Part shown: positions 6,791 to 60,555 of the stretch, in pieces
Position numbering within the stretch: the first letter of the stretch is position 1
How the letters are laid out: the number at the start of each line of letters is the position of its first letter
Translations under genes and position numbers: made by a program
Source: Terebella lapidaria
Taxonomy: Eukaryota; Annelida; Polychaeta; Terebellida; Terebellidae
Reading direction: 5' to 3'
Assembly: GCA_949152475.1 (NCBI GenBank)
Contig: OX424561.1
Location: 43,862,802 to 43,926,801 of the forward strand
DNA length: 64,000 nt
Notes under the pieces: model-generated
The model's database searches: none
What the model saw: only the letters and a program-made list of their open reading frames with translations
What the model was told of the DNA's origin: nothing

Positions 6791-6959
6791 TGTCAAGAAA
6801 ATGGTGCCGCCTACCACCTTGACGGAACTAAGGAGCTTCCTTGGGTTTGTGGGGTATTACCTCAGGTTCATCCCTGACTTTGCCACTCGAGTCCATTACC
6901 ATTGGAGCGAGGCTCACCAGCAGGCATTCGAGGCGTTGCGTCAACCCCTGACCGAGCAC

Positions 6960-8817: not shown

Positions 8818-11103
8818 CTTATGCTATAACATGGGGTTAGAAAATTAACTCTCAGAAACGGCCCCATTTTATGTCACAATGTACTATGTTCCTAGACTAA
8901 CTGTTAGCCACTAACTATTAACACTCGCTGAATAAATTAAATTAAAATTTACGATATGCCCATTATAAAATACGATGAGCGCCTAAGCTATAACATGGGG
9001 TTAAAAAATTAACTCTCAGAAACGGCCCCATTTTATGTCACAATGTACTATGTCCCTAGACTAACTATTAGCCACAAACACTCGCTGAATAAATTAACTT
9101 AAAATTTACGATATGCCCATTATAAAATACGATGAGCTCCTATGCTATAACATGGGGTTAAAAAATTAACTCTAAGAAACGGTCCCATTTTATGTCACAA
9201 TGTACTATGTCCCTAGACTAACTATTAGCCACAAACACTCGCTGAATAAATTAAGTTAAAATTTACGATATGCCCATTACAAAATACGATGAGCGCCTAT
9301 GCTATAACATGGGGTTAAAAAATTAACTCTCAGAAACGGCCCCATTTTATGTCACAATGTACTATGTCCCTAGACTAACTGTTAGCCACAAACACTCGCT
9401 GAATAAATTAACTTAAAATTTACGATATGCCCATTATAAAATACGATGAGTGCCTATGCTATAACATGGGGTTAAAAAATTAACTCTCAGAAACGGCCCC
9501 ATTTTATGTCACAATGTACTATGTCCCTAGACTAACTGTTAGCCACAAACACTCGCTGAATAAATTAACTTAAAATTTACGATATGCCCATTATAAAATA
9601 CGATGAGCGCCTATGCTATAACATGGGGTTAAAAAATTAACTCTCAGAAACGGCCCCATTTTATGTCACAATGTACTATGTCCCTAGACTAACTGTTAGC
9701 CACAAACACTCGCTGAATAAATTAACTTAAAATTTACGATATGCCCATTATAAAATACGATGAGCGCCTTTGCTATAACATGGGGTTAAAATATTAACTC
9801 TCAGAAACGGCCCCATTTTATGTCACAATGTACTATGTCCCTAGACTAACTGTTAGCCACAAACACTCGCTGAATAAATTAACTTAAAATTTACGATATG
9901 CCCATTATAAAATACGATGAGCGCCTATGCTATAACATGGGGTTAAAAAATTAACTCTCAGAAACGGCCCCATTTTATGTCACAATGTCACTATGTCCCT
10001 AGACTAACTGTTAGCCACAAACACTCGCTGAATAAATTAACTTAAAATTTACGATATGCCCATTATAAAATACGATGAGCGCCTATGCTATAACATGGGG
10101 TTAAAAAATTAACTCTCAGAAACGGCCCCATTTTATGTCACAATGTACTATGTCCCTAGACTAACTGTTAGCCACAAACACTCGCTGAATAAATTAACTT
10201 AAAATTTACGATATGCCCATTATAAAATACGATGAGCGCCTATGCTATAACATGGGGTTAAAAAAATTAACTCTCAGAAACGGCCCCATTTTATGTCACA
10301 ATGTACTATGTCCTTAGACAAACTGTTAGCCACAAACACTCGCTGAATAAATTAACTTAAAATTTACGATATGCCCATTATAAAATACGATGAGCGCCTA
10401 TGCTATAACATTGGGTTAAAAAAATAACTCTCAGAAACGGCCCCATTTTATGTCACAATGTACTATGTCCCTAGACTAACTGTTAGCCACAAACACTCGC
10501 TGAATAAATTAACTTAAAATTTACGATATGCCAATTATAAAATACGATGAGCGCCTATGCTATAACATGGGGTTAAAAAATTAACTCTCAGAAACGACCC
10601 CATTTTATGTCACAATGTATTATGTCCCTACACTAACGGTTAGCCACAAACACTCGCTGAATAAATTAACTTAAAATTTACGATATGCCCATTATAAAAT
10701 ACGATGAGCGCTTATGCTATAACATGGGGTTAAAAAATTAACTCTCAGAAACGGCCCCATTTTATGTCACAATGTACTATGTCCCTAGACTAACTGTTAG
10801 CCACAAACACTCGCTGAATAAATTAACTTAAAATTTACGATATGCCCATTATAAAATACGATGAGCGCCTATGCTATAACACGGGGTTAAAAAATTAACT
10901 CTCAGAAACGGCCCATTTTATGTCACAATGTACTATGTCCCTAGACTAACTGTTATCCACAAACACTCGCTGAATAAATTAAGTTAAAATTTACGATATG
11001 CCCATTATAAAATACGATGAGCGCCTATGCTATATGGGGTTAAGAAATTAACACTCAGAAACGGCCCCATTTTATGTCACAATGTACTATGTCCCTAGAC
11101 TAA

Positions 11104-11200
11104 CTGTTAGACTATGACCCCGGACTATGAGATTGGATAACGGACCCTGTTTTGTTTGCTCGGAATACTTGATACAGGGTATTGATTCCACGTCTGTTAG
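11104..11200. mobile_element. 83-bp insertion in satellite A with 7-bp direct repeats
   Basis: One unit is interrupted by 83 bp (11111-11193) unlike either satellite. CTGTTAG at 11104-11110 is repeated at 11194-11200, so removing the insert and one repeat restores a normal unit. Inside are complementary 7-mers, ACCCTGT (near 11144) and ACAGGGT (near 11173), about 20 bp apart, which could form a hairpin. I see no terminal inverted repeats. A small non-autonomous transposon with a 7-bp target duplication is my reading. Confidence 0.6.
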
Positions 11201-14200
11201 CCACAAACACTCGCTGAATAAATTAACTTAAAATTTACGATATGCCCATTATAAAATATGATGAGCGCCTATGCTATAACACAGGGTTAAAAAATTAACT
11301 CTCAGAAACGGCCCCATTTTATGTCACAATGTGCTATGTCCCTAGACTAACTGTTAGCCGAAAACACTCGCTGAATAAATTAATTTAAATTTACGATATG
11401 CCCATTATAAAATACGATGAGCGCCTATGCTATAACATGGGGTCAAAAAAATAACTTTCAGAAACGGCCTCATTTTATGTCACAATGTACTATGTTCCTA
11501 GACTAACTATTAGCCACAAACACTGGCTGAATAAATTAACTTAAAATTTACGATATGCCCATTATAAAATACGATGAGCGCCTATGCTATAACATGGGGT
11601 TAAAAAATTAACTCTCAGAAACGGCCCCATTTTATGTCACAATGTACTATGTCCCTAGACTAACTGTTAGCCACTAACTATTAACACTCGCTGAATAAAT
11701 TAAATTAAAATTTACGATATGCCCATTATAAAATACGATGAGCGCCTAAGCTATAACATGGGGTTAAAAAATTAACTCTCAGAAACGGCCCCATTTTATG
11801 TCACAATGTACTATGTTCCTAGACTAACTATGAGCCACAAACACTCGCTGAATAAATTAACTTGAAATTTACGATATGCCCATTATAAAATACGATGAGC
11901 TCCTATGCTATAACATGGGGTTAAAAAATTAACTCTAAGAAACGGTCCCATTTTATGTCACAATGTACTATGTCCCTAGACTAACTATTAGCCACAAACA
12001 CTCGATGAATAAATTAAGTTAAAATTTACGATATGCCCATTACAAAATACGATGAGCGCCTATGCTATAACATGGGGTTAAAAAATTAACTCTCAGAAAC
12101 GGCCCCATTTTATGTCACAATGTACTATGTCCCTAGACTAACTGTTAGCCACTAACTATTAACACTCGCTGAATAAATTAAATTAAAATTTACGATATGC
12201 CCATTATAAAATACGATGAGCGCCTAAGCTATAACATGGGGTTAAAACATTAACTCTCAGAAACGGCCCCATTTTATGTCACAATGTACTATGTCCCTAG
12301 ACTAACTATTAGCCACAAACACTCGCTGAATAAATTAACTTAAAATTTACGATATGCCCATTATAAAATACGATGAGCTCCTATGCTATAACATGGGGTT
12401 AAAAAATTAACTCTAAGAAACGGTCCCATTTTATGTCACAATGTACTATGTCCCTAGACTAACTATTAGCCATAAACACTCGCTGAATAAATTAAGTTAA
12501 AATTTACGATATGCCCATTACAAAATACGCTGAGCGCCTATGCTATAACATGGGGTTAAAAAATTAACTCTCAGAAACGGCCCCATTTTATGTCACAATG
12601 TACTATGTCCCTAGACTAACTGTTAGCCACAAACACTCGCTGAATAAATTAACTTAAAATTTGCGATATGCCCATTATAAAATACGATGAGCGCCTATGC
12701 TATAACATGGGGTTAAAAAATTAACTCTCAGAAACGGCCCCATTTTATGTCACAATGTACTATGTCCCTAGACTAACTATTAGCCACAAACACTCGCTGA
12801 ATAAATTAACTTAAAATTTACGATATGCCCATTATAAAATACGATGAGCGCCTATGCTATAACATGGGGTTAAAAAATTAACTCTCAGAAACGGCCTCAT
12901 TTTATGTCACAATGTACTATGTCCCTAGACTAACTGTTAGCCACAAACACTGGCTGAATAAATTAACCTAAAATTTACGATATGCCCATTATAAAATACG
13001 ATGAGCGCCTATGCTATAATATGGGGTTAAAAATTAACTCTCAGAAACGGCCCCATTTTATGTCACAATGTACTATGTTCCTAGACTAACTGTTAGCCAC
13101 AAACACTCGCTGAATAAATTAACTTAAAATTTACGATATGCCCATTATAAAATACGATGAGCGCCTATGCTATAACATGGGGTTAAAAAATTAACTCTCA
13201 GAAACGGCCCCATTTTATGTCACAATGTACTATGTCCCTAGACTAAATGTTAGCCACAAACACTCGCTGAATAAATTAACTTAAAATTTACGATATGCCC
13301 ATTATAAAATACGATGAGCGCCTATGCTATAACATGGGGTTAAAAAATTAACTCTCAGAAACGGCCCCATGTTATGTCACAATGTACTATGTCCCTAGAC
13401 TAACTGTTAGCCACAAACACTCGCTGAATAAATTAACTTAAAATTTACGATATGCCCATTATAAAATACGATGAGCGCCTATGCTATAACATGGGGTTAA
13501 AAAATTAACTCTCAGAAACGGCCCCATTTTATGTCACAATGTACTATGTCCCTAGACTACCTGTTAGCCACAAACACTCGCTGAATAAATTAACTTAAAA
13601 TTTACGATATGCCCATTATAAAATACGATGAGCGCCTATGCTATAACATGGGGTTAAAAAATTAACTCAGAAACGGCCCCATTTTATGTCACAATGTACT
13701 ATGTCCCTAAACTAACTGTTAGCCACAAACACTCGCTGAATAAATTAACTTAAAATTTACGATATGCCCATTATAAAATACGATGAGCGCCTATGCTATA
13801 ACATGGGGTTAAAAAATTAACTCTCAGAAACGGCCCCATTTGATGTCACAATGTACTATGTCTATAGACTAACAGTTAGCCACAAACACTCGCTGAATAA
13901 ATTAACTCAAAATTTACGATATGCCCATTATAAAATAAGATGAGCGCCTATGCTATAACATGGGGTTAAAAAATTCACTCTCAGAAACGGCCCCATTTTA
14001 TGTCACAATGTACTATGTCCCTAGACTAACTGTTAGCCACAAACACTCGCTGAATAAAATAACTTACAATTTACGATATGCCCATTATAAAATACGATGA
14101 GCGGCTATGCTATAACATGGGGTTAAAAAATTAACTCTCAGAAACGGCCCCATTTTATGTCACAATGTACTATGTCCCTAGACTAACTGTTAGCCACAAA

Positions 14201-15579
14201 CACTCGCTGAATAAATTAACTTAAAATTGACGATATGCCCATTATAAAATACGATGAGCGCCTATGCTATAACATGGGGTTAAAAAATTAACTCTCAGAA
14301 ACGGCCCCATTTTATGTCACAATGTACTATGTCCTTAGACTAACTGTTAGCCACAAACACTCGCTGAATAAATTAACTTAAAATTTACGATATGCCCATT
14401 ATAAAATAGGATGAACGCCTATGCTATAACATGGGGTTAAAAAATTAACTCTCAGAAACGGCCCCATTTTATGTCACAATGTACTATGTCCCTAGACTAA
14501 CTGTTAGCCACAAACACTCGCTGAATAAATTAACTTAAAATTGACGATATGCCCATTATAAAATACGATGAGCGCCTATGCTATAACATGGGGTTAAAAA
14601 ATTAACTCTCAGAAACGGCCCCATTTTATGTCACAATGTACTATGTCCCTAGACTAACTGTCAGCCACAAACACTCGCTGAATGAATTAACTTAAAATTT
14701 ACGATATGCCCATTATAGAATACGATGAGCGCCTATGCTATAACATGGGGTTAAAAAATTAACTCTCAGAAACGGCCTCATTTTATGTCACAATGTACTA
14801 TGTCCTTAGACTAACTGTTAGCCACAAACACTCGCTGAATAAATTAACTTAAAATTTACGATATGCCCATTATAAAATAGGATGAACGCCTATGCTATAA
14901 CATGGGGTTAAAAAATTAACTCTCAGAAACGGCCCCATTTTATGTCACAATGTACTATGTCCCTAGACTAACTGTTAGCCACAAACACTCGCTGAATAAA
15001 TTAACTTAAAATTGACGATATGCCCATTATAAAATACGATGAGCGCCTATGCTATATCATGGGGTTAAAAAATTAACTCTCAGAAACGGCCCCATTTTAT
15101 GTCACAATGTACTATGTCCCTAGACTAACTGTCAGCCACAAACACTCGCTGAATGAATTAACTTAAAATTTACGATATGCCCATTATAAAATACGATGAG
15201 CGCCTATGCTATAACATGGGGTTAAAGAATTAACTCTCAGAAACGGCCCCATTTTATGTCACAATGTACTATGTCCCTAGACTAACTGTTAGCCACAAAC
15301 ACTCGCTGAATAAATTAACTTAAAATTTACGATATGCCCACTATAAAATACGATGAGCGCCTATGCTATAACATGGGGTTAAAAAAGTAACTCTCAGAAA
15401 CGGCCCCATTTTATGTCACAATGTACTATGTTCCTAGACTAACTGTTAGCCACAAACACTCGCTGAATAAATTAACTTAAAATTTACGATATGCCCATTA
15501 TAAAATACGATGAGCGCCTATGCTATAACATGGGGTTAAAAAATTAACTCTCAGAAACGGCCCCATTTTATGTCACAAT

Positions 15580-18410
15580 GTACTATGTCCCCAGACTAAC
15601 TGTTAGCCACAAACACTCGCTGAATAAATTAACTTAAAATTACGATATGCCCATTATAAAATAGGATGAGCGCCTATGCTATAACATGGGGTTAAAAAAT
15701 TAACTCTCAGAAACAGCCCCATTTTATGTCACAATGTACTATGTCCCTAGACTAACTGTTAGCCACAAACATTCGCTGAATAAATTAACTTAAAATTTAC
15801 GATATGCCCATTATAAAATACGATGAGCGCCTATGCTATAACATGGGGTTAAAAAATTAACTCTCAGAAACGGCCCCATTTTATGTCACAATGAACTATG
15901 TCCCTAGACTAACTGTTAGCCACAAACACTCGCTGAATAAATTAACTTAAAATTTACGATAAGCCCATTATAAAATAGGATGAACGCCTATGCTATAACA
16001 TGGGGTTAAAAAATTCACTCTCAGAAACGGCCCCATTTTATGTCACAATGTACTATATCCCTAGACTAACTGTTAGCCACAAACACTCGCTGAATAAATT
16101 AAGTTAAAATTTACGATATGCCCATTATAAAATACGACGAGCGCCTATGCTATAACATGGGGTTGAAAAATTAACTCTCAGAAACGGCCCCATTTTATAT
16201 CACAATGTACTATGTCCCTTAACTAACTGTTAGCCACCAACACTCGCTGAATAAATTAACTTAAAATTTACGATATGCCCATTATAAAATACGATGAGCG
16301 CCTATGCTATAACATGGGGTTAAAAAATTAACTCTCAGAAACGGCCCCATTTTATGTCACCATGTACTATGTCCCTAGACTAACTGTTAGCCACAAACAC
16401 TCGCTGAATAAATTAACTTAAAATTTACGATATGCCCATTATTAAATACGATGAGCGCCTATGCTATAACATGGGATTAAAAAATTAACTCTCAGAAACG
16501 GCCCCATTTTATGTCACAATGTACTATGTCCCTAGACTAACTGTTAGCCACAAACACTCGCTGAATAAATAAACTTAAAATTTACGATATGCCCATTATT
16601 AAATACGATGAGCGCTTATGCTATAACATGTGGTTAAAAAATTAACTCTCAGAAACGGCCGCATTTTATGTCACAATGTACTATGTCCCTAGACTAACTG
16701 TTAGCCACAAACACTCGCTGAATAAATTAACTTAAAATTTACGATATGCCCATTATAAAATACGATGAGCGCCTATGCTATAACATGGGGTTAAAAAATT
16801 AACTCTCAGAAACGGCCCCATTTTATGTCACAATGTACTATATCCCTAGACTAACTGTTAGCCACAAACACTCGCTGAATAAATTAACTTAAAATTTACG
16901 ATAAGCCCATTATAAAATAGGATGAACGCCTATGCTATAACATGGGGTTAAAAAATTCACTCTCAGAAACGGCCCCATTTTATGTCACAATGTACTATGT
17001 CCCCAGACTAACTGTTAGCCACAAACACTCGCTGAATAAATTAACTTAAAATTTACGATATGCCCATTATAAAATAGGATGAGCGCCTATGCTATAACAT
17101 GGGGTTAAAAAATTAACTCTCAGAAACGGCCCCATTTTATGTCACAATGTACTATGTCCCTAGACTAACTGTTAGCCACAAACACTCGCTGAATAAATTA
17201 ACTTAAAATTTACGATATGCCCATTATAAAATACGATGAGCGCCTATGCTATAACATGGGGTTAAAAAATTAACTCTCAGAAACGGCCCCATTTTATGTC
17301 ACAATGAACTATGTCCCTAGACTAACTGTTAGCCACAAACACTCACTGAATAAATTAACTTAAAATTTACGATAAGCCCATTATAAAATAGGATGAACGC
17401 CTATGCTATAACATGGGGTTAAAAAATTCACTCTCAGAAACGGCCCCATTTTATGTCACAATGTACTATATCCCTAGACTAACTGTTAGCCACAAACACT
17501 CGCTGAATAAATTAAGTTAAAATTTACGATATGCCCATTATAAAATACGACGAGCGCCTATGCTATAACATGGGGTTGAAAAATTAACTTTCAGGAACGG
17601 CCCCATTTTATGTCACAATGTACTATGTCCCTTAACTAACTGTTAGCCACCAACACTCGCTGAATAAATTAACTTAAAATTTACGATATGCCCATTATAA
17701 AATACGATGAGCGCCTATGCTATAACATGGGGTTAAAAAATTAACTCTCAGAAACGGCCCCATTTTATGTCACCATGTACTATGTCCCTAGACTAACTGT
17801 TAGCCACAAACACTCGCTGAATAAATTAACTTAAAATTTACGATATGCCCATTATTAAATACGATGAGCGCCTATGCTATAACATGGGATTAAAAAATTA
17901 ACTCTCAGAAACGGCCCCATTTTATGTCACAATGTACTATGTCCCTAGACTAACTGTTAGCCACAAACACTCGCTGAATAAATAAACTTAAAATTTACGA
18001 TATGCCCATTATTAAATACGATGAGCGCTTATGCTATAACATGTGGTTAAAAAATTAACTCTCAGAAACGGCCCCATTTTATGTCACAATGTACTATGTC
18101 CCTAGACTAACTGTTAGCCACAAACACTCGCTGAATAAATTAACTTAAAATTTACGATATGCCCATTATAAAATACGATGAGCGCCTATGCTATAACATG
18201 GGGTTAAAAAATTAACTCTCAGAAACGGCCCCATTTTATGTCACAATGTACTATGTCCCTAGACTAACTGTTAGCCACAAACACTCGCGGAATAAATTAA
18301 CTTAAAATTTACGATATGCCCATTATAAAATACGATGAGCGCCTATGCTATAACGTGGGGTTAAAAAATTAACTCTCAGAAACGGCCCCATTTTATGTCA
18401 CAATGTACTA
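15580..18410 (-). repeat. Nine-unit (1,413-bp) higher-order duplication in satellite A
   Basis: Private variants recur at an offset of 1,412-1,413 bp: TATGTCCCCAGAC (15585 and 16997), AATGAACTATG (15890 and 17303), CTTAACTAACTG with CCACCAACACTC (16218 and 17631) and GCGCTTATGCTATAACATGT (16614 and 18026). This equals nine 157-bp units. Confidence 0.85.
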
Positions 18411-21400
18411 TGTCCCTAGACTAACTGTTCGCCACAAACACTCGCTGAATAAATTAAGTTAAAATTTACGATATGCCCATTATAAAATACGATGAGCGCC
18501 TATGCTATAACATTGGGTTGAAAAATTAACTCTCAGAAACGGCCCCATTTTATGTCACAATGTACTATGTCCCTAAACTAACTGTTAGCCACAAACACTC
18601 GCTGAATAAATTAACTTAAAATTTACGATATGCCCATTATAAAATACGATGAGCGCCTATGCTATAACATGGGGTTAAAAAATTAACTCTCAGAAACGGC
18701 CCCATTTTATGTCACAATGTACTATGTCCCTAGACTAACTGTTAGCCACAAACACTCGCTGAATAAATTAACTTACAATTTACGATATGCCCATTATAAA
18801 ATACGATGAGCGCCTATGCTATAACATGGGGTTAAAAAATTAACTCTCAGAAACGGCCCCATTTTATGTCACAATGTACTATGTCCCTAAACTAACTGTT
18901 AGCCACAAACACTCGCTGAATAAATTAACTTAAAATTTAAGATATGCCCATTAAAAAATACAATGAGCGCCTATGCTATAACATGGGGTTAAAAAATTAA
19001 CTCTCAGAAACGGCTCCATTTTATGTCACAATGTACTATGTCCCTAGACTAACTGTTAGCCACAAACACTCGCTGAATAAATTAACTTAAAATTTACGAT
19101 ATGCCCATTATAAAATACAATGAGCGCCTATGCTATAACATGGGGTTAAAAATTAACTCTCGGAAACGGCCCCATTTTATGTCACAATGTACTATGTCCC
19201 TAGACTAACTGTTAGCCACAAACACTCGCTGAATAAATTAACTTAAAATTTACGATATGCCCATTATAAAATACGATGAGCGCTCATGCTATAACATGGG
19301 GTTAAAATATTAGCTCTCAGAAACGGCCTCATTTTAGGTCACAATGTACTATTTCCCTAGACTAACTGTTAGCCACAAACACTCGCTGAATAAATTAACT
19401 TAAAATTTACGATATGCCCATTATAAAATACGATGAGCGCCTATGCTATAACATGGGGTTAAAAAATTAACTCTCAGAAACGGCCCCATTTTATGTCACA
19501 ATGTACTATGTCCCTAGACTAACTGTTAGCCACAAACACTCGCTGAATAAATTAACTTAAAATTTACGATATGCCCATTATAAAATACGATGAGCGCCTA
19601 TGCCATAACATGGGGTTAAAAAATTAACTCTCAGAAACGGCCCCATTTTATGTCACAATGTACTATGTCCCTAGACTAACTGTTAGCCACAAACACTCGC
19701 TGAATAAATTAACTTAAAATTTACGATATGCCCATTATAAAATACGATGAACGCCTATGCTATAACATGGGGTTAAAAAATTAACTCTCAGAAACGGCCC
19801 CATTTTATGTCACAATGTACTATGTTCCTAGACTAACTGTTAGCCACAAACACTCGCTGAATAAATTAACTTAAAATTTACGATATGCCCATTATAAAAT
19901 ACGATGAGCGCCTATGCTATAACATGGGGTTAAAAAATTAACTCTCAGAAACGGCCCCATTTTATGTCACAATGTACTATGTCCCTAGACTAACTGTTAG
20001 CCACAAACACTCGCTGAATAAATTAACTTAAAATTTACGATATGCCCATTATATAATACGATGAGCGCCTATGCTATAACATGGTGTTAAAAAATTAACT
20101 CTCAGAAACGGCCCCATTTTATGTCACAATGTACTATGTCCCTAGACTAACTGTTAGCCACAAACACTCGCTGAATAAATTAACTTAAAATTTACGATAT
20201 GCCCATTATAAAATACGATGAGCGCCTATGCTATAACATGGGGTTAAAAAATTAACTCTCAGAAACGGCCCCATTTTATGTCACAATGTACTATGTCCCT
20301 AGACTAACTGTTAGCCACAAACACTCGCTGAATAAATTAACTTAAAATTTACGATATGCCCATTATAAAATACGATGAGCGCCTATGCTATAACATGGGG
20401 TTAAAAAGTTAACTCTCAGAAACGGCCCCATTTTATGTCACAATGTACTATGTCCCTAGACTAACTGTTAGCCACAAACACTCGCTGAATAAATTAACTT
20501 AAAAATTTATGATATGCCCATTATAAAATACGATGAGCGCCTATGCTATAACATGGGGTTAAAAAATTAACTCTCAGAAACGGCCCCATTTTATGTCACA
20601 ATGTACTATGTCCCTAGACTAACTGTTAGCCACAAACACCCGCTGAATAAATTAACTTAAAATTTACGATATGCCCACTATAAAATACGATGAGCGCCTA
20701 TGCTATAACATGGGGTTAAAAAATTAACTCTCAAAACCGGCCCCATTTTATATCACAATGTACTATGTCCCTAGACTAACTGTTAGCCACAAACACTCGC
20801 TGAATAAATTAACTTAAAATTTACGATATGCCCATTATAAAATACGATGAGCGCCTTTGCTATAACATGGGGTTAAAAAATTAACTCTCAGAAACGGCCC
20901 CATTTTATGTCACAATGTATTATGTCCCTAGACTAACTGTTAGCCACAAACACTCCCTGAATAAATTAACTTAAAATTTACGATATGCCCATTATAAAAT
21001 ACGATGAGCGCCTATGCTATAACATGGGGTTAAAAAATTAACTCTCAGAAACGGCCCCATTTTATGTCACAATGTACTATGTCCCTAGACTAACTGTTAG
21101 CCACAAACACTCGCTGAATAAATTAACTTAAAATTTACGATATGCCCATTATAAAATACGATGAGCGCCTATGCTATAACATGGGGTTAAAAAATTAACT
21201 CTCAGAAACGGCCCCATTTTATGTCACAATGTACTATGTCCCTAGACTAACTGTTAGCCACAAACACTCGCTGAATAAATTAACTTAAAATTTACGATAT
21301 GCCCATTATAAAATACGATGAGCGCCTATGCTATAACATGGGGTTAAAAAAATTAACTATCAGAAACGGCCCAATTATATGTCACAATGTACTATGTCCC

Positions 21401-21960
21401 TAGACTAACTATTAGCCACAAACACTCCCTGAATAAATTAACTTAAAATTGACGATATGCCAATCATAAAATACGATGAGCGCCTATGCTATAACATGGG
21501 GTTAAAAAATTAACTCTCAGAAACGGCCCCATTTTGTGTTACAATATACTATGTCTCTAGACTAACTGTTAGCCACAAACACTCGCCGAATAAATTAACC
21601 TAAAATTCACGATATGCCCATTATAAAATACGATGAGCGCTTATGCCATAACATGGGGTTAAAAAATTAACTTTCAGAAACGGTCCCATTTTATGTCACA
21701 ATGTACTATGTCCCTAGACTAACTGTTAGCCACAAACACTCGCTAAATAAATTAACTTAAAATTGACGATATGATCATTATAAAATACGATGAGCGCCTA
21801 TGCTTAAAAAAATTAACTCTCAGAAACGGCCCCATTTTATGTCACAATGTACTATGTAACTAGACTAACTGTTAGCCACAAACACTCGCTGAATAAATTA
21901 ACTTAAAATTTACGATATGCCCATTATAAAATACAATGAGCGCCTATGCTATAACATGGG

Positions 21961-23808
21961 GAAGAAAGCCCGACCAAATAGTGTTTTTGGATGAACTATT
22001 TAGTCGGGCTTTGTTTCTATTGCAAAATGTTGTGTTTTACGTTTGTTATTGGCATCATCAAAATCTGACTATTGGTGGTAATAGATTGATAGTTACATTC
22101 ATACCAATGACTCGGTGTCACTGCTGGCAGACGTTAAATGTGTCCCCGAGGATACCATCAACTCAGTAGCCTTCTGGCTTGTGATTAGGTACTTATGTAC
22201 TTGTCATGTATCTGTTCTATGGGGTTTGTTTCGGATTTCTAAATCATTTTCATAGGTTGTTGGGGAGTTGTATACTAATTCCATCAGGTGTACAGTGTAA
22301 ACAACTATATTTCACACTGTCTGCCCCTGATGACGCCAGTGTGTCTTTGGATGAACTATTTGGTCGGGCTTTGTTTCTATTGCAAAATGTTGTGTTTTAC
22401 GTTTGTTATTGGCATCATCAAAATCTGACTATTGGTGGTAATAGATTGATACTTACATTCATACCACTGAGTCGGTGTCACTGCTGGCGGACGTTAAATC
22501 TGTCCCCGAGGATACCATCAACTCAGTAGCCTTCTGGCTTGTGATTAGGTACTTATGTACTTGTAATGTATCTGTTCTTTGGGATTTGTTTCGGATTTCT
22601 AAATTATTTTCATAGGTTGTTGGGCAGTTGTATACTAATTCCATCAGGTGTACAGTAGAAACAACTATATTTCACACTGTCTGCCCCTGATGACGCCAGT
22701 GTGTCTTTGGATGAACTATTTGGTCGTGCTTTGTTTCTATTGCAAAATGTTGTGTTTTACGTTTGTTATTGGCATCATCAAAATCTGACTATTGGTGGTA
22801 ATAGATTGATACTTACATTCATACCACTGAGTCGGTGTCACTGCTGGCGGACGTTAAATCTGTTCTATGGGGTTTGTTTCGGATTTCTAAATCATTTTCA
22901 TAGGTTGTTGGGGAGTTGTATACTAATTCCATCAGGTGTACAGTGGAAACAACTATATTTCACACTGTCTGCCCCTGATGACGCCAGTGTGTCTTTGGAT
23001 GTACTATTTGGTCGGGCTTTGTTTCTATTGCAAAATGTTGTGTTTTACGTTTGTTATTGGCATCATCAAAATCTGACTATTGGTGGTAATAGATTGATAC
23101 TTACATTCATACCACTGAGTCGGTGTCACTGCTGGCGGACGTTAAATCTGTCCCCGAGGATACCATCAACTCAGTAGCCTTCTGGCTTGTGATTAGGTAC
23201 TTATGTACTTGTCATGTATCTGTTCTATGGGGTTTGTTTCGGATTTCTAAATTATTTTCATAGGTTGTTGGGCAGTTGTATACTAATTCCATCAGGTGTA
23301 CAGTAGAAACAACTATATTTCACACTGTCTGCCCCTGATGACGCCAGTGTGTCTTTGGATGAACTATTTGGTCGTGCTTTGTTTCTATTGCAAAATGTTG
23401 TGTTTTACGTTTGTTATTGGCATCATCAAAATCTGACTATTGGTGGTAATAGATTGATACTTACATTCATACCACTGAGTCGGTGTCACTGCTGGCGGAC
23501 GTTAAATCTGTCCCCGAGGATACCATCAACTCAGTAGCCTTCTGGCTTGTGATTAGGTACTTATGTACTCGTCATGTATCTGTTCTATGGGGTTTGTTTC
23601 GGATTTCTAATTTATTTTCATAGGTTGTTGGGCAGTTGTATACTAATTCCATCAGGTGTACAGTCGAAACAACTATATTTCACACTGTCTGCCCCTGATG
23701 ACGCCAGTGTGTCTTTGGATGAACTATTTGGTCGTGCTTTGTTTCTATTGCAAAATGTTGTGTTTTACGTTTGTTATTGGCATCATCAAAATCTGAATAT
23801 TGGTGGTA
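21961..23808 (+). repeat. Satellite B left array, 360-bp unit, plus orientation
   Basis: The start GGATGAACTATTT recurs at 21989, 22349, 22709, 22997, 23357 and 23717. The spacing is 360 bp except for one 288-bp unit (22709-22996) lacking 72 bp. The units are nearly identical. Because 360 is divisible by three and one frame is largely open, peptides such as LFGRALFLLQNVVFYVCYWH appear repeatedly. Each unit ends that frame with a stop, and no homology is recognised, so I do not call it coding. Confidence 0.93.
21965..22012. repeat. Hairpin at the left A/B border
   Basis: Arms 21965-21982 and 21995-22012 are complementary at 17 of 18 positions (AAAGCCCGACCAAATAGT against ACTATTTAGTCGGGCTTT), with a 12-base loop. 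The left arm is an inverted scrap of the satellite B unit placed exactly where satellite A ends. Confidence 0.85.
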
Positions 23809-24429
23809 TTTGCATTGGCATCATAAAAATCTCATTTCCGTTTGTTATTGGCATCATCAAATTCTCATTTCCATGAGAGACACAGTGATGCCAGCAGTTG
23901 AATGGTACACAATATGTACTGCACATATTATTACAAAATACAGGTACTTTTATACATTCAGGCTGCATCAGAGAGCATGTATGCATCAATGAATACATGC
24001 GTCCATCTCCCTATTTTATTGGCCTGTTCTCCTGCTTCTGTACAGAATATAGTCATTCATCAATCACTAATGAGTTGGGCAAATGATTTTCAAATCACTC
24101 TCCAAACTTGTCACAAAGTACGAGTAGGTTTCAGAGGCTGGTGACAAGGGGATGAATTCATTTTACACTTCATTTCACACCCAAATGTGACTGTCATCAA
24201 TTAGTGAGTAGCCCAATATCCCCAGCTTTATTCAATAATCTGAAGGTAAGATAATGTGCATCACTTGAGACTAATCCCCAGACTGGGTGACATGAGTGTG
24301 ATTCATTAATGATAACTGTTAAGCAATTGGAGTCATTATGTCTGCAGTCTTGTCTAACTTCACCAGTAATTTCTTAGGTGAAAAAAACAATTGCAAACAA
24401 GGCAGGGGGCCTTGACGCTTGAAGAGCTG

Positions 24430-24437
24430 TATTTAAA
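24430..24437 (+). promoter_or_regulatory. Possible TATA box in the core
   Basis: TATTTAAA lies about 170 bp upstream of the candidate first exon at 24607, after a GC-richer stretch (GGCAGGGGGCCTTGACGC). A TCAGATT initiator-like site follows at 24444-24450, closer than the usual 25-30 bp, so the pairing is weak. Confidence 0.3.
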
Positions 24438-24606
24438 CCCCACTCAGATTACTGAGACCATATTATGACTGTGACTCTGCTCTGAACCTAGAGGTTGCAT
24501 CAACTACATCATTGAAAACTGCAATTTCTACCACCAATACTTTTGGAGGAAGTTTTATGCTTTTTTGGACCTGTTTTGTTTGGACTTCGATTGCATTAAC
24601 TGGAAA

Positions 24607-24672
24607 ATGGCCCGGAAAGTGAAGGACACGTCGCTGGAGTTCTTCTCCTCATGTTACCAAGAAGCACTGACG
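24607..24672 (+). CDS. Candidate first coding exon (22 codons)
   Basis: An ATG in good context (A at -3, G at +4) opens MARKVKDTSLEFFSSCYQEA plus two codons, then meets a splice-donor-like GTTAGT at 24673. Read through, the frame stops four codons later. If the donor is used the exon ends in phase 0, matching the phase-0 acceptor of the exon at 55217, although not the phase the possible exon at 54951 would need. I do not recognise the peptide. It could be the 5' exon of the gene at 55-59 kb, with the right satellite arm as intron, part of another gene, or chance. Confidence 0.3.
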
Positions 24673-38000: not shown

Positions 38001-41000
38001 AGCATATGGGCTCATCGTATTTTATAATATGCATATCGTAAATATTAAGTTAATTTATTCAGCGAGTGTTTGTGGCTAACAATTAGACTAGGGACATAGT
38101 ACATTGTGACATAAAATGTGGCCGTTTCTGACAGTTAATTTTTTAACCCCATGTTATAGCATAGGCACTCATCGTATTTTATAATGGTCATATCGTAAAT
38201 TTTAAGTTAATTTATTCAGCGAGTGTTTGTGGCTAACAGTTAGTCTAGGGACATAGTACATTGTGACATAAAATGGGGCCGTTTCCGAGAGTTAATTTTT
38301 AACCCCATGTTATAGCATAATCGCTCATCGTATTTTATAATGGGCATATCGTAAATTTTGAGTTAATTTATTCAGCGAGTGTTTGTGGCTAACTGTTAGT
38401 CTAGGGACATAGTACATTGTGACATAAAATGGGGCCGTTCCTGAGAGTTAATTTTTTAACCCTATGTTATAGCATAGGCGCTCATCGTATTTTATAATGG
38501 GCATATCGTAAATTTTAAGTTAATTTATTCAGCGAGTGTTTGTGGCTAACAGTTAGTCTAGGGACATAGTACATGGTGACATAAAATGGAGCCGTTTCTG
38601 AGAGTTAATTTTTTAACCCCATGTTATAGCATAGGCGCTCATCGTATTTTATAATGGGCATATCGTAATTTTTAAGTTAATTTATTCAGCGAGTGTTTGT
38701 GGCTAACAGTTAGTCTAGGGACATAGTACATTGTGACATAAAATGGCGCCGTTTCTAAGAGTTAATTTTTTAGCCCCTTGTTATAGCATAGGGGCTCATC
38801 GTATTTTATAATATGCATATCGTAAATTTTAAGTTAATTTATTCAGCGAGTGTTTGTGGCTAACAGTTAGTCTAGGGACATAGTACATTGTGACATAAAA
38901 TGTGGCCGTTTCTGAGAGTTAATTTTTTAACCCCATGTTATAGCATAGGCGCTCATCGTATTTTATAATGGGCATAACGTAAATTTTAAGTTAATTTATT
39001 CAGCGAGTGTTGTGGCTAACAGTTAGTCTAGGGACATAGTACATTGTGACATAAAATGGGGCCGTTTCTGAGAGTTAATTTTTTAACCCCATGTTATAGC
39101 ATAGGCACTCATCGTATTTTATAATGGGCATATCGTAAATTTTAAGTTAATTTATTCAGCGAGTGTTTGTGGCTAACAGTTAGTCTAGGGACATAGTACA
39201 TTGTGACATAAAATGGGGCCGTTTCTGAGAGTTAATTTTTTAACCCCATGTTAAAGCATAGGCGCTCATCGTATTTTATAATGGGCATATCGTAAATTTT
39301 AAGTTAATTTATTCAGCGAGTGTTTGTGGCTAACAGTTATTTTAATGACATAGTACATTGTGACATAAAATGGGGCCGTTTCTGAGAGTTAATTTTTTAA
39401 CCCCATGTTATAGCATAGGCGCTCATCGTATTTTATAATGGGCATATCGTAAATTTTAAGTTAATTTATTCAGCGAGTGTTTGTGGCTAACAGTTAGTCT
39501 AGGGACATAGTATATTGTGATATAAAATGGTGCCATTTCTGAGAGTTAATTTTTTAACCCCATGTTATAGCATTCAGCATCGTATTTTATAATAGGCGCT
39601 CATCGTATTTTGTAATGGGCATATCGTCAATTTTAAGTTAATTTATTCAGCGAGTGTTTGTGGCTAACAGTTAGTCTAGGGACATAGTACATTGTGACAT
39701 AAAATGGGGCCGTTTCTGAGAGTTAATTTTTTAACCCCATGTTATAGCATAGGCACTCATCGTATTTTATAATGGGCATATCGTAAATTTTAAGTTAATT
39801 TATTCGGCGAGTGTTTGTGGCTAACAGTTAGTCTAGGGACATAGTACATTGTGACATAAAATGGGGCCGTTATAGCATAGGCACTCATCGTATTTTATAA
39901 TGGGCATATCGTAAATTTTAAGTTAATTTATTCAGCGAGTGTTTGTGGCTAACAGTTAGTCTAGGGACATAGTACATTGTGACATAAAATGGGGCCGTTT
40001 CTGAGAGTTAATTTTTTAACCCCATGTTATAGCATAGGCGCTCATCGTATTTTATAATGGGCATATCGTAAATTTTAAGTTAATTTATTCAGCGAGTGTT
40101 TGTGGCTAACAGTTAGTCTAGGGACATAGTACATCGAGACATAAAATGGGGCCGTTTCTGAAAGTTAATTTTTTAACCCCATGTTATAGCATAGGCGCTC
40201 ATCGTATATTATTATAGGCATATCGTAAATTTTAAGTTAATTTATTCAGCGAGTGTTTGTGGCTAACAGTTAGTCTAGGGACATAGTACATTGTGACATA
40301 AAATGGGGCCGTTTCTGAGAGTTAATTTTTTAACCATATGTTATAGCATAGGCGCTCATCGTATTTTATAATGGGCATATCGTAAATTTTAAGTTAATTT
40401 ATTCAGCGAGTGTTTGTGGCTAACAGTTAGTCTAGGGACATAGTACATTGTGACATAAAATGGGGCCGTTTCTGAGAGTTAATTTTTTAAATCCATGTTA
40501 TAGCATAGGTGCTCATCGTATTTTATAATGGGCATATCGTAAATTTTAAGTTAACTTATTCAGCGAGTGTTTGTGGCTAACAGTTAGTCTAGGGACATAG
40601 TACATTGTGACATAAAATGGGGCCGTTTCTGAAAGTTAATTTTTTAACCCCATGTTATAACATAGGCGCTTATCGTATTTTATAAAGGGCATATCGTAAA
40701 TTTTAAGTTAATTTATTCAGCGAGTGTTTGTGGCTAACAGTTAGTCTAGGGACACAGTACATCGTGACATAAAATGGGGCCGTTTCTGAGAGTTAATTTT
40801 TTAACCCCATGCTATAGCATAGGCGCTCATCGTATTTTATAATGGGCATATCGTAAATTTTAAGTTAATTTATTCAGCGAGTGTTTGTGGCTAACAGTTA
40901 GTCTAGGGACATAGTACATTGTGACATAAAATGGGGCCGTTTCTGAGAGTTAATTTTTTAACCCCATGTTATAGCATAGGCGCTCATCGTATTTTATAAT

Positions 41001-44000
41001 GGGCATATCGTAAATTTTAAGTTAATTTATTCAGCGAGTGTTTGTGGCTAACAGTTTGTCTAGGGACATAGTACATTGTGACAAAAAATGGGGCCGTTTC
41101 TGAGAGTTAATTTTTTAACCCCATGTTATAGCAGAGGCGCTCATCGTATTTTATAATGGGCATATCGTAAATTTTAAGTTAATTTATTCAGCGAGTGTTT
41201 GTGTCTAACATTTTGTCTAGGGACATAGTACATTGTGACATAAAATGGGGCCGTTTCTGAGAGTTAATTTTTAACCCCAGGTTATAGCAAAGGCGCTCAT
41301 CGTATTTTATAATGGGCATATCGTAAATTTTAAGTTAAATTATTCAGCGAGTGTTTGTGGCTAACAGTTAGTCTAGGGACATAGTACATTGTGACATAAA
41401 ATGGGGCCGTTTCTGAGAGTTAATTTTTTAACCCCATGTTATAGCATAGGCGCTCATCGTATTTTATAATGGGCATATCGTAAATTTTAAGTTAATTTAT
41501 TCAGTGAGTGTTTGTGGCTAACAGTTAGTCTAGGGACATAGTACATTGTGACATAAAATGGTGCCGTTTCTGAGAGTTAATTTTTTAACCTCATGTTATA
41601 GCATAGGCGCTCATCATATTTTATAATGGGCATATCGTAAATTTTAAGTTAATTTATTCTGCGAGTGTTTGTTGCTAACAGTTAGTCTAGGGACATAGTA
41701 CATTGTGACATAAAATGGGGCCGTTTCTGAGAGTTAATTTTTTAACCCCATGTTGTAGCATAGGCGCTCATCGTATTTTATAATGGGCATATCGTAAATT
41801 TTAAGCTAATTTATTCAGCGAGTGTTTGTGGCTAACATTTAGTCTAGGGACATAGTACATTGTGACATAAAATTGGGCCGTTTCTGAGAGTTAATTTTTT
41901 AGCCCCATGTTATAGCATAGGCGCTCATCGTATTTTATAATGGGCATATCGTAAATTTTAAGTTAATTTATTCAGTGAGTGTTTGTGGCTAACATTTAGT
42001 CTAGGGACATATTACATTGTGACGTAAAATCTGGCCGTTTCTGAGAGTTAATTTTTTAACCCCATGTTATAGCATAGGCGCTCATCGCATTTTATAATGG
42101 GCATATCGTAAATTTTAAGTTAATTTATTCAGCGAGTGTTTGTGGCTAACAGTTAGTCTAGGGACATAGTACATTGTGACATAAAATGGCGCCGTTCCTA
42201 AGAGTTAATTTTTTAGCTCCATGTTATAGCATATGGGCTCATCGTATTTTATAATATGCATATCGTAAATATTAAGTTAATTTATTCAGCGAGTGTTTGT
42301 GGCTAACAATTAGACTAGGGACATAGTACATTGTGACATAAAATGTGGCCGTTTCTGACAGTTAATTTTTTAACCCCATGTTATAGCATAGGCACTCATC
42401 GTATTTTATAATGGTCATATCGTAAATTTTAAGTTAATTTATTCAGCGAGTGTTTGTGGCTAACAGTTAGTCTAGGGACATAGTACATTGTGACATAAAA
42501 TGGGGCCGTTTCCGAGAGTTAATTTTTAACCCCATGTTATAGCATAATCGCTCATCGTATTTTATAATGGGCATATCGTAAATTTTGAGTTAATTTATTC
42601 AGCGAGTGTTTGTGGCTAACTGTTAGTCTAGGGACATAGTACATTGTGACATAAAATGGGGCCGTTCCTGAGAGTTAATTTTTTAACCCTATGTTATAGC
42701 ATAGGCGCTCATCGTATTTTATAATGGGCATATCGTAAATTTTAAGTTAATTTATTCAGCGAGTGTTTGTGGCTAACAGTTAGTCTAGGGACATAGTACA
42801 TGGTGACATAAAATGGAGCCGTTTCTGAGAGTTAATTTTTTAACCCCATGTTATAGCATAGGCGCTCATCGTATTTTATAATGGGCATATCGTAATTTTT
42901 AAGTTAATTTATTCAGCGAGTGTTTGTGGCTAACAGTTAGTCTAGGGACATAGTACATTGTGACATAAAATGGCGCCGTTTCTAAGAGTTAATTTTTTAG
43001 CCCCTTGTTATAGCATAGGGGCTCATCGTATTTTATAATATGCATATCGTAAATTTTAAGTTAATTTATTCAGCGAGTGTTTGTGGCTAACAGTTAGTCT
43101 AGGGACATAGTACATTGTGACATAAAATGTGGCCGTTTCTGAGAGTTAATTTTTTAACCCCATGTTATAGCATAGGCGCTCATCGTATTTTATAATGGGC
43201 ATAACGTAAATTTTAAGTTAATTTATTCAGCGAGTGTTGTGGCTAACAGTTAGTCTAGGGACATAGTACATTGTGACATAAAATGGGGCCGTTTCTGAGA
43301 GTTAATTTTTTAACCCCATGTTATAGCATAGGCACTCATCGTATTTTATAATGGGCATATCGTAAATTTTAAGTTAATTTATTCAGCGAGTGTTTGTGGC
43401 TAACAGTTAGTCTAGGGACATAGTACATTGTGACATAAAATGGGGCCGTTTCTGAGAGTTAATTTTTTAACCCCATGTTAAAGCATAGGCGCTCATCGTA
43501 TTTTATAATGGGCATATCGTAAATTTTAAGTTAATTTATTCAGCGAGTGTTTGTGGCTAACAGTTATTTTAATGACATAGTACATTGTGACATAAAATGG
43601 GGCCGTTTCTGAGAGTTAATTTTTTAACCCCATGTTATAGCATAGGCGCTCATCGTATTTTATAATGGGCATATCGTAAATTTTAAGTTAATTTATTCAG
43701 CGAGTGTTTGTGGCTAACAGTTAGTCTAGGGACATAGTATATTGTGATATAAAATGGTGCCATTTCTGAGAGTTAATTTTTTAACCCCATGTTATAGCAT
43801 TCAGCATCGTATTTTATAATAGGCGCTCATCGTATTTTGTAATGGGCATATCGTCAATTTTAAGTTAATTTATTCAGCGAGTGTTTGTGGCTAACAGTTA
43901 GTCTAGGGACATAGTACATTGTGACATAAAATGGGGCCGTTTCTGAGAGTTAATTTTTTAACCCCATGTTATAGCATAGGCACTCATCGTATTTTATAAT

Positions 44001-47000
44001 GGGCATATCGTAAATTTTAAGTTAATTTATTCAGCGAGTGTTTGTGGCTAACAGTTAGTCTAGGGACATAGTACATTGTGACATAAAATGGGGCCGTTAT
44101 AGCATAGGCACTAATCGTATTTTATAATGGGCATATCGTAAATTTTAAGTTAATTTATTCAGCGAGTGTTTGTGGCTAACAGTTAGTCTAGGGACATAGT
44201 ACATTGTGACATAAAATGGGGCCGTTTCTGAGAGTTAATTTTTTAACCCAATGTTATAGCATAGGCGCTCATCGTATTTTATAATGGGCATATCGTATAT
44301 TTTAAGTTAATTTATTCAGCGAGTGTTTGTGGCTAACAGTTAGTCTAGGGACATAGTACATTGTGACATAAAATGGGGCCGTTTCTGAAAGTTAATTTTT
44401 TAACCCCATGTTATAGCATAGGCGCTCATCGTATTTTATAATGGGCATATCGTAAATTTTAAGTTAATTTATTCAGTGAGTGTTTGTGGCTAACAGTTAG
44501 TCTAGGGGCATAGTACATTGGGACATAAAACGGGGCCGTTTCTGAGAGTTAATTTTTTAACCCCATGTTAGAGCATAGGTGCTCATCGTATTTTATAATG
44601 GGCATATCGTAAATTTTAAGTTAATTTATTCAGCGAGTGTTTGTGGCTAACAGTTAGTCTAGGACATAGTACATTGTGACATAAAATGGGGCCGTTTCTG
44701 AGAGTTAATTTTTTAACCCCATGTTATAGCATAGGCGCTCATCGTATTTTATAATGGGCATATCGTAAATTTTAAGTTAATTTATTCAGCGAGTGTTTGT
44801 GGCTAACAGTTAGTCTAGGGACATAGTACATTGTGACATAAAATGGGGCCGTTTCTGAGAGTTAATTTTTTAACCCCATGTTATAGCATAGGCGCTCATC
44901 GTATTTTATAATGGGCATATCGTAAATTTTAAGTTAATTTATTCAGCGAGTGTTTGTGGCTAACAGTTAGTCTAGGGACATAGTACATTGTGACATAAAA
45001 TGGGGCCGTTTCTGAGAGTTAATTTTTTAACCCCATGTTATAGCATAGGTGCTCATCGTATTTTATAATGGGCATATCGTAAATTTTAAGTTAATTTATT
45101 CAGCGAGTGTTTGTGGCTAACAGTTAGTCTAGGACATAGTACATTGTGACATAAAATGGGGCCGTTTCTGAGAGTTAATTTTTTAACCCCATGTTATAGC
45201 ATAGGCGCTCATCGTATTTTATAATGGGCATATCGTAAATTTTAAGTTAATTTATTCAGCGAGTGTTTGTGGCTAACAGTTAGTCTAGGGACATATTACA
45301 TTGTGACAAAAAATGGGGCCGTTTCTGAGAGTTAATTTTTTAACCCCATGTTATAGCAGAGGCACTCATCGTATTTTATAATGGGCATATCGTAAATTTT
45401 AAGTTAATTTATTCAGCGAGTGTTTGTGTCTAACAGTTAGTCTAGGGACATAGTACATTGTGACATAAAATGGGGCCGTTTCTGAGTGTTAATTTTTAAC
45501 CCCAGGTTATAGCATAGGCGCTCATCGTATTTTATAATGGGCATATCGTAAATTTTAAGTTAAATTATTCAGCGAGTGTTTGTGGCTAACAGTTAGTCTA
45601 GGGACATAGTACATTGTGACATAAAATGGGGCCGTTTCTGAGAGTTAATTTTTTAACCCCATGTTATAGCATAGTCGCTCATCGTATTTTATAATGGGCA
45701 TATCGTAAATTTTAAGTTAATTTATTCAGTGAGTGTTTGTGGCTAACAGTTAGTCTAGGGGCATAGTACATTGTGACATAAAATGGGGCCGTTTCTGAGA
45801 GTTAATTTTTTAACCCCATGTTAGAGCATAGGTGCTCATCGTATTTTATAATGGGCATATCGTAAATTTTAAGTTAATTTATTCAGCGAGTGTTTGTGGC
45901 TAACAGTTAGTCTAGGACATAGTACATTGTGACATAAAATGGGGCCGTTTCTGAGAGTTAATTTTTTAACCCCATGTTATAGCATAGGCACTCATCGTAT
46001 TTTATAATGGGCATATCGTAAATTTTAAGTTAATTTATTCAGCGAGTGTTTGTGGCTAACAGTTAGTCTAGGGACATAGTACATTGTGACATAAAATGGG
46101 GCCGTTTCTGAGAGTTAATTTTTTAACCCCATGTTATAGCATAGGCGCTCATCGTATTTTATAATGGCCATATCGTAAATTTTAAGTTAATTTATTCAGC
46201 GAGTGTTTGTGGCTAACTGTTAGTTTAGGGACATAGTACATTGTGACATAAAATGGGGCCGTTTCTGAGAGTTAATTTTTTAACCCCATGTTATATCATA
46301 GGCGCTCATCGTATTTTATAATGGGCATATCGTAAATTTTAAGTTAATTTATTCAGCGAGTGTTTGTGGCTAACAGTTAGTCTAGGACATAGTACATTGT
46401 GACATAAAATGGGGCCGTTTCTGAGAGTTAATTTTTTAACCCCATGTTATAGCATAGGCGCTCATCGTATTTTATAATGGGCATATCGTAAATTTTAAGT
46501 TAATTTATTCAGCGAGTGTTTGTGGCTAACAGTTAGTCTAGGGACATAGTACATTGTGACATAAAATGGGGCCGTTTCTGAGAGTTAATTTTTTAACCCC
46601 ATGTTATAGCATAGGCGCTCATCCTATTTTATAATGGGCATATCGTAAATTTTAAGTTAATTTATTCAGCGAGTGTTTGTTGCTAACAGTTAGTCTAGGG
46701 ACATAGTTCATTGTGACATAAAATGGGGCCGTTTCTGAGAGTTAATTTTTTAACCCCATGTTATAGCATAGTCGCTCATCGTATTTTATAATGGGCATAT
46801 CGTAAATTTTAAGTTAATTTATTCAGTGAGTGTTTGTGGCTAACAGTTAGTCTAGGGACATAGTACATTGTGACATAAAATGGTGCCGTTTCTGAGAGTT
46901 AATTTTTTAACCCCATGTTATAGCATAGGCGCTCATCGTATTTTATAATGGGCATATCGTAAATTTTAAGTTAATTTATTCAGCGAGTGTTTGTTGCTAA

Positions 47001-53000: not shown

Positions 53001-54935
53001 GGCGCTCATCGTATTTTATAATGGGCATATCGTAAATTTTAAGTTAATTTATTCAGCGAGTGTTTGTGGCTAACAGTTAGTCTAGGGACATAGTACATTG
53101 TGACATAAAATGGGGCCGTTTCTGAGAGTTAATTTTTTAACCCCATGTTATAGCATTGGCGCTCATCGTATTTTATAATGGCATATCGTAAATTTTAAGT
53201 TAATTTATTCAGCGAGTGTTTGTGCCTAACAGTTAGTCTAGGGACATAGTACATTGTGACATAAAATGGGGCCGTTTCTGAGAGTTAATTTTTTAACCCC
53301 ATGTTATAGCATAGGCGCTCATCGTATTTTATAATGGGCATATCGTAAATTTTAAGTTAATTTATTCAGCGAGTGTTTGTGGCTAACAGTTAGTCTAGGG
53401 ACATAGTACATTGTGACATAAAATGGGGCCGTTTCTGAGAGTTAATTTTTTAACCCCATGTTATAGCATAGGCGCTCATCGTATTTTATAATGGGCATAT
53501 CGAAAATTTTAAGTTAATTTATTCAGCGAGTGTTTGTGGCTAACAGTTAGTCTAGGGACATAATACATTGTGATATAAAATGGGGCCGTTTCTGAGAGTT
53601 AATTTTTTAACCCCATGTTATAGCATAGGCGCTCATCGTATTTTATAATGGGCATATCGTAAATTTTAAGTTAATTTATTCAGCGAGTGTTTGTGGCTAA
53701 CAGTTAGTCTAGGGACATAGTACATTGTGACATAAAATGGGGCCGTTTCTGAGAGTTAATTTTTTAACCCCATGTTATAGCATTGGCGCTCATCGTATTT
53801 TATAATGGCATATCGTAAATTTTAAGTTAATTTATTCAGCGAGTGTTTGTGGCTAACAGTTAGTCTAGGGACATAGTACATTGTGACATAAAATGGGGCC
53901 GTTTCTGAGAGTTAATTTTTTAACCCTATGTTATAGCATAGGCGCTCATCGTATTTTATAATGGGCATATCGTAAATTTTAAGTTAATTTATTCAGCAAG
54001 TATTTGTGGCTAACAGTTAGTCTAGGGACATAGTACATTGTGACATAAAATGAGGCCGTTTCTGAGAGTTAATTTTTTAACCCCATGTTATAGCATAGGC
54101 GCTCATCGTATTTTATAATGGGCATATCGTAAATTTTAAGTTAATTTATTCAGCGAGTGTTTGTGGCTAACAGTTAGTCTAGGGACATAATACATTGTGA
54201 CATAAAATGGGGCCGTTTCTGAGAGTTAATTTTTTAACCCCATGTTATAGCATAGGCGCTCATCGTATTTTATAATGGGCATATCGTAAATTTCAAGTTA
54301 ATTTATTCAGCGAGTGTTTGTGGCTAACAGTTAGTCTAGGGACATAGTACATTGTGACATAAAATGGGGCCGTTTCTGAGAGTTAATTTTTTAACCCCAT
54401 GTTATGGCATAGGCGCTCATCGTATTTTATAATGGGCATATCGTAAATTTTAAGTTAATTTATTCAGCGAGTGTTTGTGGCTAACAGTTAGTCTAGGGAC
54501 ATAGTACATTGTGACATAAAATGGGGCCGTTTCTGAGAGTTAATTTTTTAACCCCATGTTATAGCATAGGCGCTCATCGTATTTTATAATGGGCATATCG
54601 TAAATTTTAAGTTAATTTATTCAGCGAGTGTTTGTGGCTAACAGTTAGTCTAGGGACATAGTACATTGTGACATAAAATGGGGCCGTTTCTGAGAGTTAA
54701 TTTTTTAACCCCATGTTATAGCAGAGGCGCTCATCGTATTTTATAATGGGCATATCGTAAATTTTAAGTTAATTTATTCAGCGAGTGTTTGTGGCTAACA
54801 GTTAGTCTAGGGACATAGTACATTGTGACATAAAATGTTACCGTTTCTGAAAGTTAATTTTTTAACCCCATGTTATAGCATAGGCGCTCATCGTATTTAA
54901 TAATGGGCATATCGTAAATTTTAAGTTAATTTATT
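26055..54935 (+). repeat. Satellite A right array, 157-bp unit, about 184 copies, plus orientation
   Basis: Unit counted directly: GGGGCC at 26183 and 26340 gives 157 bp. Order within a unit: GGGGCCGTTTCTGAGAGTTA, AACCCCATGTTATAGCATAG, GCGCTCATCGTATTTTATAA, TGGGCATATCGTAAATTTTA, AGTTAATTTATTCAGCGAGT, GTTTGTGGCTAACAGTTAGT, CTAGGGACATAGTACATTGT, then GACATAAAAT. Higher-order duplications are frequent, with offsets of about 627 bp (52.6 and 53.2 kb; 34.0 and 34.7 kb), about 1,256 bp (30.6 and 31.86 kb) and 4,227 bp. Broken units occur near 27530, 27731, 28430, 29041, 32337, 39572, 39869, 43800, 44096 and 47851. No credible reading frame lies in the array. Confidence 0.97.
35642..44095 (+). repeat. 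Tandem duplication of a 4,227-bp block of satellite A
   Basis: Two adjacent copies, 35642-39868 and 39869-44095. Shared rare variants line up at an offset of 4,227 bp: ACATCGAGACATA (35904 and 40131), TATATTATTATAGGC (about 35979 and 40206) and the junction GGGGCCGTTATAGCAT (39863 and 44090). Very few differences were noticed by eye (for example CGGCGAG near 39806 against CAGCGAG near 44033). The join falls at GTTATAGCAT. Confidence 0.9.

Positions 54936-59141: not shown

Positions 59142-60555
<1,414 letters not shown>

Follow-up and report, generated by a model that had tools for sequence, protein, structure and literature searches.

We analysed a window of 64,000 nucleotides from the annelid Terebella lapidaria (assembly GCA_949152475.1, 761.6 Mb in 438 contigs), which corresponds to positions 43862802-43926801 of contig OX424561.1 (C7; other contigs are designated in the same way). 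C7 comprises 43,950,887 bases and the window ends 24 kb short of its end. Two satellites, A (157-bp unit) and B (360-bp unit), are present here in a mirrored order, A-B-core-B-A. With a third, short A array at the left, the order along the window is A(+) A(-) B core B A(+), and the features are as follows:

2000 to 8453, plus strand: Ty3/gypsy-type retrotransposon with protease, reverse transcriptase and RNase H (Pfam gag-asp_proteas, RVT_1, RT_RNaseH); start approximate
8454 to 8822, plus strand: third A array, 2.3 units of another subfamily, in the orientation of the right arm
8815 to 21961, minus strand: left A arm, 157-bp units, 13,147 bp, with an 83-bp foreign insert
21962 to 22015, plus strand: A/B junction hairpin, 54 bp, left copy
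21962 to 23808, plus strand: left B array (360-bp unit), about 5 units
23809 to 23864, no strand assigned: left B/core join, short repeated pieces, not a B terminus
23865 to 25193, plus strand: core, 1,329 bp, piece of a locus related to C1:45663417-45664706
24607 to 24672, plus strand: probable first coding exon inside the core, running from an ATG up to a GT splice donor, judged by eye
25194 to 26054, minus strand: right B array (360-bp unit), about 2.4 units, joined to the core through a match to the fixed B 3' end
26001 to 26054, plus strand: A/B junction hairpin, 54 bp, right copy
26055 to 54935, plus strand: right A arm, 157-bp units, 28,881 bp, with a recent tandem duplication
54936 to 62000, plus strand: right flank with a multi-exon gene family, collinear with C4:47881283-47887786 in 5 matching pieces with insertions and deletions

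The original prediction held that two satellites invert around a common centre, which the strands and coordinates of A and B bear out, and its arm lengths (13.1 and 28.9 kb of 157-bp units) agree with the 13,147 and 28,881 bp measured. Both A arms also join B in one unit phase, as it claimed, through the same hairpin. Its starting point of 8818 is close to the beginning of the left arm at 8815, but A already begins at 8454. Exact inverted matches within the window reach 362 bp, and a pattern spanning the A/B junction (2 mismatches allowed) was found at three places in the assembly, in both window arms and once on C4, against none for the reversed control; chance can therefore be ruled out as the source of the mirror. 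A search with the 54-bp hairpin (3 mismatches allowed) returned the same three places.

The consensus units of the left and right A arms are identical, and the mean monomer difference between the arms, 3.3%, equals the value within them (81 left and 178 right units). When only full-length units are considered (17 left, 46 right), the differences are 1.4% within the left arm, 2.2% within the right and 1.8% between the two. The right arm contains a recent tandem duplication, in which 35748-39805 is repeated at 39975-44032 with 1 mismatch in 4,058 bp and a shift of 4,227 bp. The left arm is interrupted at 11111-11193 by an 83-bp insert of non-satellite sequence, for which a CTGTTAG target duplication is possible by eye; sequence resembling this insert is present inside a B array of C4, near 47815500.

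The third A array (8454-8822) starts where the gypsy-type element is truncated, at 8453, and at its contact with the left arm (8815-21961) the two are in phase and opposite in orientation. It differs by 6.0% from either arm, against 3.3% within the arms, a comparison of two units. A 31-mer diagnostic of this array (1 mismatch allowed) occurs at 7 places in the genome: 3 in the window, two on C5 and one each on C141 and C247. The border between the gypsy-type element and A was found nowhere in the assembly except at its own place.

Further A arrays are located on C1 at 48.06-48.12 Mb (of 100.8 Mb), on C170, C383 and C407, and on C14 at 36.48 Mb. Among the A matches listed, a partial set covering C1, C170, C383, C407 and C14 and leaving out C7, each contig shows a single direction. 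On C4 an A array spans 47815770-47881029, its continuity being deduced from same-strand matches; the sequence covered comprises the first 14 kb, some loci and the far end. The arrays lie 180-245 kb from the end of C4, 33-80 kb from that of C7 and about 0.9 Mb from that of C14. At position 120 of the A unit, T is carried by 76-95% of the monomers in five loci on C1, C170 and C383, and is mostly absent from those of the window arms and C4, the exceptions being the left arm (11% T) and one of two far C4 loci (43% T).

In the loci compared, satellite B is a tandem element scattered through the genome, whose 3' end is fixed. Its arrays stop at ACTTACAT in all 9 ends examined (6 stretches), and the opposite ends vary (7 shown). 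The right core/B join of the window matches this fixed end, and C1 has the locus without B at that point, comparable on one side only. On the left, B meets the core at a point inside one of its units, and repeated pieces only about 30 bp long are found at the join. At a B target inside a long interspersed nuclear element on C17, there is no duplication beyond a shared T (one target, read by eye). The B units of both arms and of C4 form one group: unit position 9 is T in 22 of 22 units (left 5, right 2, C4 15) against C in 33 of 33 dispersed units, and position 144 is G in 27 of 27 (left 6, right 3, C4 18) against A in 36 of 36, the dispersed sample being 36 units from 6 stretches among 103 matches listed. 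Within this group the overall divergence is star-like, with 2.19% between left and right, 2.56% between left and C4, and 2.27% between right and C4.

The sequence of the A/B hairpin is unique, but fold-back at the 5' ends of B may be commoner. Two of the seven dispersed 5' ends (C13, C8) have a perfect 12-bp stem at the border, a value that none of 200 shuffles reached in either case, and the hairpin may therefore be simply the 5' end of a B insertion and not a product of mirror formation. Two others, on C17 and at the C9b locus, have stems of 8 bp, a length that 11 and 18 of 200 shuffles, respectively, also attained; the stem at C9b consists of AT repeats. The remaining 3 of 7 have no stem of at least 8 bp.

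The combination of a fixed 3' end with varied 5' ends prompted us to consider a ribozyme-type retroelement RNA in B, a candidate that was rejected, as no Rfam family reached its gathering score anywhere in the window. Within 21.8-26.2 kb the left hairpin gave one weak match, to mir-278_2, which was taken as chance; it scored 25.6 bits (E 0.031), where the gathering score is 70. B may be a putative Helentron-type element, by likeness only: the non-autonomous Helentrons of oyster with tandem repeats, as far as the available part of their description goes, also form dispersed short tandem arrays, and they prefer TT and make no target duplication, two properties that B may share (PMC7492417). Their constant flanking modules differ from the fixed 3' and varied 5' ends of B at the loci read.

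The central segment had been described as a 1.4-kb single-copy centre. It does occur once in the window, but an assembly search returned long matches also at C1:45663417-45664706 and, in two pieces, at C4:47797199-47797954. The relative on C1 shows 91% identity by BLAST, and three other matches measure only 33-40 bases. Over the two pieces retained on C4, the identities are 98.5 and 98.6% between C7 and C4, 96.5 and 98.0% between C7 and C1, and 96.5 and 96.1% between C1 and C4. Neither A nor B was found in the 50 kb of C1 read around the core relative. C1 and C4 remain similar beyond the left edge of the core, with matching pieces of 88-96% identity spread across about 9 kb, and the left flank of the window (8,453 bp) has no match longer than 80 bp in the 50-kb stretches of C1 or C4. 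The native flank beyond the core break is absent from the left side of the window, the remainder of C7 not having been searched for it. By eye, a putative first exon, short and with its splice donor, can be made out in the core, together with a stretch that resembles a promoter. By these comparisons the core is a piece of a locus that occurs elsewhere free of satellites, and not the body of a transposon.

C4 has first the native flank and a partly deleted core, then several interrupted pieces of B in minus orientation, A in plus orientation and finally the same gene-family flank as at the right of the window. The right half of the mirror is an older block, which the comparison shows to be present unmirrored on C4. 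Window positions 54936-62000 match C4:47881283-47887786 in the same order, in five pieces with 92-99% identity; near 58.5-58.9 kb the window has about 400 bp without a counterpart, and C4 likewise has about 570 bp without one. The A/gene border is common to C4 and C383, with A finishing in GGGG and then the gene (17 bases of A were read on C383), and C6 carries the gene without A at that border. At its right A border the window has an old junction that also exists on C4 and C383, shortened here by about 0.3 kb: 62 bp of A and 254 bp of flank found on C4 are missing, and this is why the right outer end shares no phase. The remark of the original prediction that the outer ends have neither a common phase nor a target duplication is right, and it can be explained by a trimmed right end and a left end joined to another A array.

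We consider that the mirror probably arose once, through an inverted duplication in a part of the chromosome rich in satellites, and is not a mobile element. A block consisting of native locus, core, B, hairpin, A and gene-family flank would have broken inside the core, at window position 23865, on C7 or its forerunner. After the broken end had folded back on itself or been joined to a second copy, B, the hairpin and A would have been duplicated in reverse orientation, with the 1.33-kb core remaining between the copies as an unduplicated spacer. A second break within the new A arm would have been sealed in phase onto a small A array in the gypsy element, at about 8817. Afterwards A and B would have grown and shrunk by unequal exchange, which would be the reason why the arms are now unequal in length. 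We infer the breaks, the fold-back and the order of the steps; the copy counts and borders are observed. An inverted duplication followed by array growth had been the cautious alternative of the original prediction, and it fits both the unmirrored half on C4 and the core locus without A or B on C1.

Known human rearrangements offer a parallel. In the available part of a survey of human fold-back inverted duplications, all 21 sequenced junctions have a spacer, of 766-70,466 bp, and 13 of the 21 have 2-8 bp of microhomology (PMC3907307). The disomic-spacer cases described there have inverted arms about an unduplicated spacer, as the window has, and the spacer between the inverted arms is single in the window (core, 23865-25193, 1,329 bp, or 1.3 kb). 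The sequence beyond the break is likewise gone, and short extra pieces are found at the join. In its single-copy spacer and in the repeated pieces of its left join, the window resembles these human fold-back duplications (PMC3907307); it differs in that its arms are satellite arrays, its event is old and its origin from a single molecule is putative.

Several points weigh against this explanation. Microhomology at the left join amounts to about 2 bp (GA), read by eye and given no chance test. With about 5 units in its B array, against about 2.4 on the right, the left arm is no simple replica of the right arm as it stands today. In the 178 bp of B that are proximal to the hairpin and adjoin A, identity is 94.4% between left and right, 94.9% between left and C4, and 96.1% between right and C4; since left and right are no closer to each other than right and C4, the left arm may stem from another copy. 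Finally, the evidence comes from one assembly, taken without reads, and from one individual.

The same outlying position of the left arm favours a fusion of two different chromosome ends, or of homologues, each with A, hairpin and B, in which the mirror would be the fusion scar and the left arm would come from a third lineage. C4 demonstrates that an A-B block of the same kind exists on another chromosome. Fusion with another A-B copy is a serious rival, which we nevertheless hold to be unlikely: the identities concern only 178 bp, the B units overall are star-like, and the assembly contains no further donor with the A/B junction.

An assembly artefact, in which the left arm was misjoined to the core or derives from a chimeric read, is improbable. 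Long satellite arrays near a contig end are prone to error, and the reads were not checked. However, the two arms are unequal in length and, next to the hairpin, diverge by several percent, whereas a foldback at read level would give identical arms; the left join consists of a sequence peculiar to it, including repeated pieces, and the same A/B junction was assembled independently on C4.

The layout also recalls fission yeast, where a unique core is surrounded by inner repeats and outer repeats, all inverted. We give very little credence to the proposal that the window is a chromosome-end or pericentromere block with such symmetry, now used for chromatin or segregation. Still less can be said for a working arrangement of centromere type, in which selection would maintain inverted repeats on either side of a unique core: the 157-bp unit length and the positions of the A arrays on C4, C7, C14 and C1 speak for it, but by junction count there is one mirror, its core is a gene fragment, and the A matches listed, a partial set without C7, run in one direction per contig. 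Symmetrical satellites have been proposed to matter in Tribolium; the available part of the study of Tribolium madens describes macro-dyad symmetries of a major and a minor satellite which, as here, show orientation changes and mirror symmetry over tens of kilobases (PMC13081366). In that beetle the pattern recurs genome-wide with conserved inversion sites, in contrast to the single copy of the window, which stands around a gene fragment. A literature search on 157-bp satellite DNA at mollusc centromeres found none, and one on inverted, head-to-head or palindromic satellite DNA and Helitrons brought up a single plant review; these results extend to the searches made and claim no absence from print beyond them.

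The original prediction had likened the structure to a foldback-type element, here a giant transposon with satellite-built terminal inverted repeats. The window has the inverted arms of tandem units about a unique centre that such an element would show, and tandem repeats do occur in the terminal inverted repeats of foldback elements, one of which, Tetris, fed a satellite, according to the part of that report available (PMC4079207). The likeness to Foldback, Galileo and Tetris ends with the arms built of tandem units, as the mirror comes without a copy family, target duplication or shared ends and its core is locus sequence (PMC4079207). A junction search for further A-B-core-B-A copies gave only the mirror of the window and the unmirrored half on C4; the three junction places, two in the window and one on C4, therefore represent one mirror and no family scattered through the genome. 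Its core is part of a locus that is also present elsewhere, free of A and B, the right border is old and common to C4 and C383, at an interrupted gene, and by eye the two outer borders share no direct repeat. The foldback transposon is thus unsupported; we rejected it on copy number, core identity and borders, and regard it as extremely improbable.

The satellite mirror adds a documented case to a type of rearrangement that is already known, and none of the systems compared is this case. Its history is partly readable, as the unmirrored half, the satellite-free core locus and the gene without A are all found in one assembly, and its join sequences offer material for testing fold-back against fusion models. 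It also illustrates that a 46-kb inverted repeat can pass for a giant transposon when a single window is read.

In the right flank, positions 55217-59150 hold a multi-exon gene family that has relatives on C4, C6, C12 and C383. One exon of the window copy is out of frame, judged by eye. The family may be transposase-like, and Kolobok-like is a candidate name; three exon pieces compared with Pfam gave 0, 0 and 1 match, the last to MULE (E 0.0031, 18.3 bits, below the cut-off of 27.6). A repeat of about 585 bp at 60847-61431 is not in the C4 counterpart and is matched on many chromosomes at 91-99%. A second gypsy-type element starts within 61900-64000, with a primer-binding sequence that by eye is of the same type as the one near 2 kb. 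No telomeric array was found in the last 24 kb of C7, nor by eye in 400-bp pieces from both ends of C7, C4 and C1 and from the start of C14. Near the end of C7 there is a 134-bp repeat with GTCAAAGGTC, which by eye is also present at the starts of C7 and C4.

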